From Glaciihabitans tibetensis (GTDB lineage: Bacteria; Actinomycetota; Actinomycetes; Actinomycetales; Microbacteriaceae), in contig NZ_PVTL01000006.1 of the NCBI RefSeq assembly GCF_003003265.1, positions 248,001-312,000 on the forward strand: a stretch of DNA of 64,000 bases, given 5' to 3'. The notes under the pieces are model-generated. The model saw only the letters and a program-made list of their open reading frames with translations. It was not told the DNA's origin and did not search any database. Positions 59,304 through 61,319 of the stretch are shown here, in pieces. A program made the position numbers and the translations under genes. Position 1 is the stretch's first letter. Each line of letters starts with the position of its first letter.

Positions 59304-61319
59304 TTACCCAGCGGTAAAGAAGGTCGAAAAAGTCGGCCCAAATCGCCCCGTTAGAGGGTCAAAATAGCGAAGTCCGAGCGTCACCAGGCCCGCGCTGGTC
59401 GTGAAGTCGCCCGACCAGGTGCCATCGTCGCCGATGCGCATTACGTCCGCGCGAGGTGATCCGTTGACGACGCGCTGCACCGACGCTCCGGGCTCGCCGC
59501 TGAACGAAATTCGCAGACCCGCAGCAAAGACCGTGCTGCCCGCGAGCGGGCTGGTGAGAGTCGGCGGCTGTCGGATCGTCACCGCGACGGAGGGGCCAAT
59601 GGCCGAGGTGCGACCCTCGAAAACCTGCCTGACGGAGAGCTGCGTTGTGCCGGCGCGAATCTCTCTCAGGTCGATGATGCTCCAGGTCCCGTCGGACGAC
59701 GCGGTCGCGGAGGCGAGAACGCGGAGGGAGCTGTTGACGAGCTCCACCCGGGCGCCGATCTGGGCGCGCGTGCCCGAGATGATTGGGAGGACGAGTTCGA
59801 GTGGATCGACGTCGACTCGCATTGTCGGCGCAGCGAGCGGTGTGGGTGCGGGGGGTGTCTCAGGCTCAGGCTCAGGCTCAGGCTCAGGCTCTGGCTCCGG
59901 TACCGGAACGGACGGTGGAACGGGAGTGGGCACGGGCACGGGCACGGGCACCGGCGCGGGTTGCGGAACTGGTGTGGATGCAGAGCCTGGATTCGGGCTC
60001 GGCGCGGTGGTCGAGGCGCTCGCCGGATCGTCGTCCGGGTGGTGTCTCGATGACGAGGGTGGCTCGTCGGCCGGGATGGGTTTCGCCGAGGGAACGGGTG
60101 TCGCCGTGGGAGTCGGCGTTCCCGTGGGGGTCGGTGTGGCCGAAGGCGTGGGCGCAGCCGTTGTGGTCGCCGAACTTTTATCCTCAGCCCTGATGACCTC
60201 GGGTGGTGTGGCCTCCGGGAGGACGGCCGGCTGGAGCACCGCGACGACAACGAACCAGGTGGTTGCGAGAGCTGCTGTCGCGCCGAGGCTGATCGATGCA
60301 ACCACAGCTCCGGTTTTCGCGGCGACCGTCGTGGTCACGCCCACGTGGGCCGCTGCCACGAGTCCGGGCTCTCCCAGGCTCTGATGAGCAAGGGCTGACC
60401 CGCCCAATAGTGCGGGAAGGGTGGCCCAGATCAGTCCGGTTGCCAGAGCGCGTGCTTCGTCAGCGGCTCGCCGACAGCTCGCGCAGAGTGCGAGGTGCTC
60501 GTCCACCTGGCGCGCCGCCGCGGGCGACAGGGCATTCCGGGTGTGCAGGATCACCTTCTCCAGCACCCGGGAACACTCTTCGGAACCGGCGCGGGTGAGC
60601 TGGCGCGCTATCCACGCGTCTCGGAAGCCGCGACGCGCCCGCACGAGCAGGGCTGACGCCGCGTTTGCGCTGAGTTTCAACCGGGGAGCGATCTGGCGGG
60701 GCCGCAATCCCTCCACGTCGCTCAGCCAGAGGGCGTCGCGCCAGCGTTCCGGAAGCTCCCGGAACACCTCCGCCACCAACGTGCTGTCGGCGCGAGACTC
60801 CGCCATCGTGGCAGAAGAGGAGGTCACGAGCGCGTCATTCTCCGAGGTGCTGGGATCATCCACCGAGTACGGTCGCGGCGCGCGACCCCACTCTTCGGCG
60901 AGGTGGCGCACGGTGGTGACCAAATAGGCGCCAAACGCCGAGTCCGGCCCGCCGCCGCGGCCAATGATGCCCATGACCCGGACGAACGCTTCCGCAACGA
61001 GATCGTCGGCATCGAGCGAGGGAAACTGCTGTGCCTGGGCCCGAGCGCGCTTGACATTGTTTCGCCACAACGCGGCGAACGCGTCACTGTCACCGGCACG
61101 TGCCCGGGTGAGGAGCGCCGCGTCACTACCCTCAGCGTCACTATCCTGAGCGTCACCGCCCGGAGCGTCACCGCCCGCAGCGTCTCTGCCCTCAGCGTCG
61201 CTGGCCCCCGCTCCGGTGGTCTGCGCCGCGGCATCCCCCTCGTTATTCGAGTCAAATGATGGGCTCGGAGGAACCGAAACGTCCTCTCCGCTGGGCGGAT
61301 TCGGCGAGTCGGGGCTCAT
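59304..61319 (-). CDS. Single-chain ECF sigma factor fused to zinc-finger anti-sigma, membrane helix and extracellular domain
   Basis: A 671-residue protein. Order: acidic Asp/Gly/Ala linker (1-65), sigma region 2 (~70-150, FAALWRNN, DADDLVAEAFVRVM, AYLVTTVRHLAEEW), region 4 (~180-235, LPERWRDALWLSDVEGLRPRQIAPRLKLSANAASALLVRARRG), a zf-HC2 anti-sigma motif His275-x3-Cys279-x2-Cys282, a membrane segment (~331-365), a Thr/Pro and Pro-Glu stalk (~375-500), and beta-sandwich extracellular modules (VELVNSSLRVLASATASSDGTW, LTSPLAGSTVF). It should be a membrane-held sigma factor that senses something outside. It lies directly upstream of the adhesin. Confidence 0.88.
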   Translation of the reverse strand: MSPDSPNPPSGEDVSVPPSPSFDSNNEGDAAAQTTGAGASDAEGRDAAGGDAPGGDAQDSDAEGSDAALLTRARAGDSDAFAALWRNNVKRARAQAQQFPSLDADDLVAEAFVRVMGIIGRGGGPDSAFGAYLVTTVRHLAEEWGRAPRPYSVDDPSTSENDALVTSSSATMAESRADSTLVAEVFRELPERWRDALWLSDVEGLRPRQIAPRLKLSANAASALLVRARRGFRDAWIARQLTRAGSEECSRVLEKVILHTRNALSPAAARQVDEHLALCASCRRAADEARALATGLIWATLPALLGGSALAHQSLGEPGLVAAAHVGVTTTVAAKTGAVVASISLGATAALATTWFVVVAVLQPAVLPEATPPEVIRAEDKSSATTTAAPTPSATPTPTGTPTPTATPVPSAKPIPADEPPSSSRHHPDDDPASASTTAPSPNPGSASTPVPQPAPVPVPVPVPTPVPPSVPVPEPEPEPEPEPEPETPPAPTPLAAPTMRVDVDPLELVLPIISGTRAQIGARVELVNSSLRVLASATASSDGTWSIIDLREIRAGTTQLSVRQVFEGRTSAIGPSVAVTIRQPPTLTSPLAGSTVFAAGLRISFSGEPGASVQRVVNGSPRADVMRIGDDGTWSGDFTTSAGLVTLGLRYFDPLTGRFGPTFSTFFTAG

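Follow-up and report, generated by a model that had tools for sequence, protein, structure and literature searches.

One-chain proteins of the ECF52 and ECF53 groups, which combine a sigma factor with a zinc finger, a transmembrane helix, a proline-rich extension and an extracellular domain, have already been described (PMC5826349, PMC8999054). SCO4117 of Streptomyces coelicolor has this layout and is the only ECF52 member characterised in the cited literature (PMC5826349). The actinobacterial groups ECF48 and ECF53 have a C-terminal fusion to a zinc anti-sigma domain and a transmembrane helix, and their proteolysis is expected (PMC8999054). IutY of Pseudomonas putida (ECF243) is likewise fused to its anti-sigma factor and is freed by regulated proteolysis (PMC8999054), but it belongs to Gram-negative siderophore cell-surface signalling and has other domains and partners. 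Several SigI/RsgI systems of Clostridium thermocellum sense extracellular substrates and control surface machinery, with cleavage by RseP; they differ in having sigma and anti-sigma factors as separate proteins, a sigma factor of the SigI family and carbohydrate sensing (PMC12203970). Very little is known of what tethered self-inhibited sigma factors respond to and which genes they control.

We analysed a window of 64,000 nucleotides from Glaciihabitans tibetensis, in which one gene encodes a protein of this general design. The initial annotation had taken this combination of parts, with its long stalk and wall-reaching modules, to suggest direct sensing of a surface state. The one-chain design is indeed present, but it is not new in kind, given the ECF52 and ECF53 precedents. 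In contrast to SCO4117, which ends in an NPCBM carbohydrate-binding domain, the window protein ends in two Ig-like domains with a terminal RYxDPxTGRFGP, and its gene lies beside that of an adhesin. Pairing with sortase-anchored adhesins is not described for ECF48 and ECF53 in the cited ECF literature. What is new is the Ig tip with its family signature, a pairing with sortase-anchored adhesins and pili that recurs among the relatives and, in a sister clade, a candidate regulon.

The tethered sigma factor and its relatives

The open reading frame, its strand and its coordinates are as first annotated. Its parts are given below in the order of the protein chain.

59304..61319, minus strand: coding sequence of 671 aa, a one-chain ECF sigma factor with zinc anti-sigma domain, transmembrane helix, stalk and Ig-like tip (open reading frame and domain profiles)
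60876..61124, minus strand: sigma region 2, residues 66-148, with the canonical LDADDLVAEAF and FGAYLVTTVRH (profile; model compared with E. coli sigmaE)
60600..60773, minus strand: sigma region 4, a helix-turn-helix, residues 183-240 (Pfam Sigma70_r4_2 above gathering score; model)
60420..60581, minus strand: zinc anti-sigma domain, residues 247-300, with ligands C249, H275, C279 and C282 (zf-HC2 above gathering score; conserved ligand columns)
60216..60308, minus strand: single transmembrane helix, about residues 338-368 (hydropathy)
59829..60215, minus strand: Pro-rich extracellular stalk with a (PE)n run, about residues 369-497 (composition)
59565..59828, minus strand: Ig-like domain 1, about residues 498-585, weak Big_6 (profile, model)
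59307..59564, minus strand: Ig-like domain 2, about residues 586-671 (model)
59334..59369, minus strand: C-terminal signature RYFDPLTGRFGP, residues 651-662 (in varying form in 24 aligned sequences)

Sequence, profiles and model agree in placing sigma regions 2 and 4, zf-HC2, the transmembrane helix, the stalk and the outer beta modules on one chain, as had been read from the sequence. The Pro-rich stalk, for which more than 120 residues had been claimed, has about 130 by composition, and the (PE)n run closes its end. Sigma70_r4_2 (residues 183-230) and zf-HC2 (residues 249-283) score above the Pfam gathering scores, Sigma70_r2 scores slightly below (22.3 versus 24 bits), and TIGR02937 sigma70-ECF exceeds its NCBIfam cut-off. 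When the cytoplasmic parts of 47 homologues are combined into a profile, it matches ECF sigma factors of solved structure, with E 4e-18 for E. coli sigmaE. In the AlphaFold model of residues 62-300 (pLDDT 88, pTM 0.56), where the placement of the domains relative to each other is unreliable, region 2 resembles that of E. coli sigmaE (Z 12.6 over 87 residues, rmsd 2.1), and region 4 resembles the region 4 chains of other sigma factors. A loss of DNA- and RNA polymerase-binding residues, which the initial annotation had allowed for, was not found, regions 2 and 4 being alignable with solved ECF sigma factors. The protein has sigma regions 2 and 4 only, with the conserved core sequence, as is typical of ECF sigma factors, together with the Hx3Cx2C and upstream Cys/His (C249, H275, C279, C282) of class I zinc anti-sigma domains (ZAS/ASDI). 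The window protein is an ECF sigma factor with a fused zinc anti-sigma domain.

The C-terminal part was modelled by AlphaFold as two Ig-like beta-sandwiches (mean pLDDT 97.4). Its best structural matches are common Ig and FnIII folds, adhesin modules included (FnIII of CbhA, Z 10.1 over 81 residues; Bap C region, Z 9.6; SiiE, Z 9.4), and such matches of a model would indicate the fold, not the function. A carbohydrate-binding tip was considered and found to be without support, as the window protein has no NPCBM or CBM match and two Ig-like domains instead.

Of the ECF52 features, the zinc finger, the transmembrane helix and the long proline-rich extension are present, and the extracellular carbohydrate-binding domain is absent. 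Because of this absence, we do not file the protein as ECF52 in the sense of SCO4117. The cytoplasmic profile of the window family retrieves more distant NPCBM homologues of the SCO4117 layout (L264, L269), and the NPCBM proteins form their own clade in a FastTree tree of 166 sequences despite this common profile. Since the cytoplasmic module is common and the Ig tip and signature replace NPCBM, we regard the window protein as a variant of the known one-chain design.

Of 100 genomes sampled from the same family, 41 contain relatives of residues 1-308, as do 37 of the 84 genera, and the named matches are mostly from Microbacteriaceae. All 58 aligned homologues match sigma regions 2 and 4, and 52 of them match zf-HC2. 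H275, C279 and C282 are invariant, and position 249 is C or H in nearly all of the 58. Their outer parts match Big_13 (15 homologues), Big_6 (12) or little else, and many are closed by a signature akin to RYxDPxTGRFGP. Since the architecture is recurrent, its zinc ligands are conserved and relatives are widespread in the family, it is not due to chance. No relatives were found in viral contigs. Some short homologues (L080, L085, L091) have a Trp motif, e.g. ESWVVITP or PRWVVVTE, at the end of a Pro-rich tail.

We propose, with a probability of roughly 0.6, that the protein is a one-component membrane-tethered ECF sigma factor that is cleaved upon a signal at its tip and drives its own gene and those of wall-anchored surface proteins, here likely the adhesin. 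At rest, regions 2 and 4 would be held off core RNA polymerase by the membrane anchor together with the fused zinc anti-sigma domain. The Pro-rich stalk would take the two Ig-like domains across the wall, where a surface state would be read. A signal at the tip could lead to cleavage outside and in the membrane, the latter by a site-2 protease, and the cytoplasmic sigma fragment would be set free. The freed fragment would then transcribe its own gene and genes of wall-anchored surface proteins, here most likely that of the adjacent adhesin. We infer such inhibition and cleavage, and a ligand, for the window protein; release of the sigma fragment by proteolysis is plausible on the model of SCO4117 and IutY. 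The genome has a site-2 protease gene and five sortases.

The adjacent adhesin gene

The region downstream of the sigma gene and the upstream regions of both genes contain the following features.

54235..59244, minus strand: giant adhesin with DUF11 and DUF5979 repeats, 1669-aa open reading frame (open reading frame and domain profiles)
53705..54238, minus strand: open reading frame with the last DUF5979 and an LPSTG sorting signal, one frame off the adhesin (profile, frame)
59265..59293, minus strand: candidate adhesin promoter of ECF-like type, ACGGAACGT-N16-GTCC (weak, defined post hoc)
61351..61378, minus strand: candidate sigma-gene promoter, ACGAAACGT-N15-GTGC, similar to the preceding element and 31 bp upstream of the start codon (weak, defined post hoc)

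The DUF11 and DUF5979 repeats fit the description of the downstream neighbour as a giant surface adhesin, with the LPSTG wall anchor in the next open reading frame. The adhesin also carries an isopeptide-type domain and a signal-like N-terminus, and its start is more likely the TTG near 59159, which is preceded by GGAGG. The frame is lost at about 54235, which leaves LPSTG outside the 1669-aa open reading frame; the neighbouring one at 53705-54238 is probably the broken-off 3' end of the adhesin. The break (54230-54245), next to a G run of a few letters, could stem from an error of sequencing, from mutation or from slippage.

The parting of the adhesin from its LPSTG anchor could mean that the locus is degenerate, the sigma protein or its adhesin partner being no longer functional in this strain. 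It would fit that the window protein sits on a long tree branch and that no close homologue was found in the other searched genomes of the same genus. However, the sigma reading frame is intact with every key residue present, and the G run leaves room for an artefact of sequencing; we consider degeneration unlikely.

Between the sigma gene and the TTG at which the adhesin probably starts are 144 bp, in which GGAAC, an ECF-like -35 word, lies within ACGGAACGT-N16-GTCC. The pattern ACGRAACGT-N-GTSC has seven sites in the genome and is intergenic only at the sigma and adhesin genes; it is weak evidence, because it was built from those two sites. The motif that is conserved in the sister clade (see below) has no site with up to two mismatches in the window and no exact site in the genome. 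The sensor-effector pair that the initial annotation had seen here is well supported for the family, by linkage and motif. At the window locus it is only circumstantial, since gene order is different in the nearest relatives and the window lacks the conserved motif. The sigma factor would nonetheless control the window adhesin in the mechanism proposed above.

Two other features of the window were recorded. The divergent gene at 61452-63644 encodes a secreted TPM-domain protein with a Gly-rich C-terminus, and the only Rfam match in the window is a ZMP/ZTP riboswitch at 16050-16133, above the gathering score.

Linkage with sortase-anchored giants and pili

By approximate counts, with genes called by a simple script and anchors by a loose pattern, a giant secreted protein (at least 800 aa) is adjacent at 28 of the 139 sigma loci with both neighbours present, and a giant with a sortase-type C-terminus at 22 of the 139. 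Among 690 control genes from 40 regions of five genomes, nine encode giant secreted proteins, and one of the 690 encodes a giant with a sortase-type C-terminus.

In the tree of 166 sequences, the window protein belongs to an 11-member clade (SH-like support 95), in which its exact place is unsure because its long branch is joined to another, that of L037. A same-strand anchored giant lies within about 5 kb at 7 of the 11 loci (the window, L037, L062, L099, L102, L113 and L133), the window being counted by including the split-off anchor reading frame. Without the window, the count is 6 of 10 versus 1 of 322 control genes (Fisher p 8e-10). No giant surface protein was found near the remaining four members (L036, L096, L100, L101). 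Among all sigma loci, again with the window left out, 26 of 123 have a same-strand anchored giant nearby. A same-strand giant neighbour needs 16 changes on the tree, and the pairing has therefore been gained or lost many times.

In Microbacterium paraoxydans (L113) the gene order is SpaH/EbpB pilin, class C sortase, DUF11 protein, sigma factor and LATTG-anchored DUF11 giant, and gene order and sizes are the same in M. oxydans (L133). The sigma gene is placed inside a sortase-pilus operon in these two Microbacterium. A literature search on ECF sigma factors with sortases and pili found no paper. The 3.8-Mb genome G005 has 23 one-chain sigma homologues (e.g. L089, L216-L221), at least 12 of which adjoin same-strand giants, the adhesin gene mostly coming before the sigma gene. 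Short forms in this genome bear a small, different extracellular domain. A protein of about 480-590 aa with a LuxR-like C-terminus is encoded a few genes from the sigma gene at L036, L062, L096, L099, L100 and L102.

The same one-chain mechanism could also serve a broad regulon, with a tip that reads a general envelope or carbohydrate cue and an adhesin that is a mere neighbour or read-through passenger. SCO4117, which is alike in architecture, has pleiotropic effects, and many homologues lack an adjacent surface gene; the strong linkage with sortase-anchored giants in the window clade and in multi-copy genomes points the other way. We regard such a broad regulon as possible but not likely.

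Another arrangement would be a feedback or assembly checkpoint, in which the tip would bind the partner adhesin or pilus and an absent or misassembled surface structure would set the sigma factor free. Pairing across clades, with up to 23 copies per genome and at least 12 beside giants, would suit it, as would the abundance of Ig modules in sensors and adhesins alike. In the comparison of sensor tips with their own partner adhesins, however, no cognate sequence similarity beyond general Ig likeness was found, and we hold a checkpoint of this kind to be improbable.

Promoter-like motif and candidate small RNA in the sister clade

The motif GTCAT-N17-GTC[TCG] precedes 37 of 142 sigma genes (consensus GCGTCATR-N16-GTCTCY), compared with at most nine for any such spaced pair in shuffled sequences. 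Its sites were found in 49 of 250 genomes, versus about ten sites for the reversed pattern, and the motif-bearing genomes have one to five exact sites each. Some copies lie 4-161 bp, mostly 12-77 bp, behind the sigma stop codon; at L131 the gene that comes after such a copy, in the same orientation, encodes a secreted protein of 1603 aa. Away from the sigma loci, 7 of 25 sites precede anchored or secreted surface proteins, versus 14 of 690 control genes (p 2e-6; 0.0016 with orthologues collapsed). These seven targets are choice-of-anchor G proteins in three genera, a LASTG-anchored protein, two DUF5979/Big_8 proteins and one protein with CshA repeats. The surface proteins behind the motif in the sister clade include LAVTG/DUF5979 ones.

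The position and conservation of the motif suggest that it is read by the sigma factor. Sites in the sister clade precede other, non-surface genes too, as a broad regulon would predict, but the enrichment of surface proteins behind the motif argues for the proposed role of the sigma factor in driving wall-anchored proteins. Together, the adhesin and pilus linkage and this rare conserved promoter-like motif provide concrete testable targets, and they hint at a way in which actinobacteria may select the giant surface proteins that they display. We speculate, tentatively and as a rather doubtful extension, that a widespread class of Microbacteriaceae sigma factors, each made in one piece, serves wall-anchored adhesins and pili only. 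In it each Ig tip would monitor its own partner, up to 23 copies in a genome would choose among giant adhesins, and one clade would have a sigma-controlled small RNA as a further output.

In most sister-clade members the gene after the sigma gene is convergent and unrelated. Between the sigma gene and this usually convergent gene, L038, L039, L041, L042, L043, L127, L151, L155, L170 and other loci have a candidate small RNA (about 100-120 nt) whose start closely follows the motif copy downstream of the sigma stop codon. Six loci were scanned with Rfam, and no match was found where the candidate sits. It could fold into hairpins with a UCCCAG loop and a terminator-like stem, and in eight aligned sequences 16 of the 24 consensus pairs are changed on both sides.
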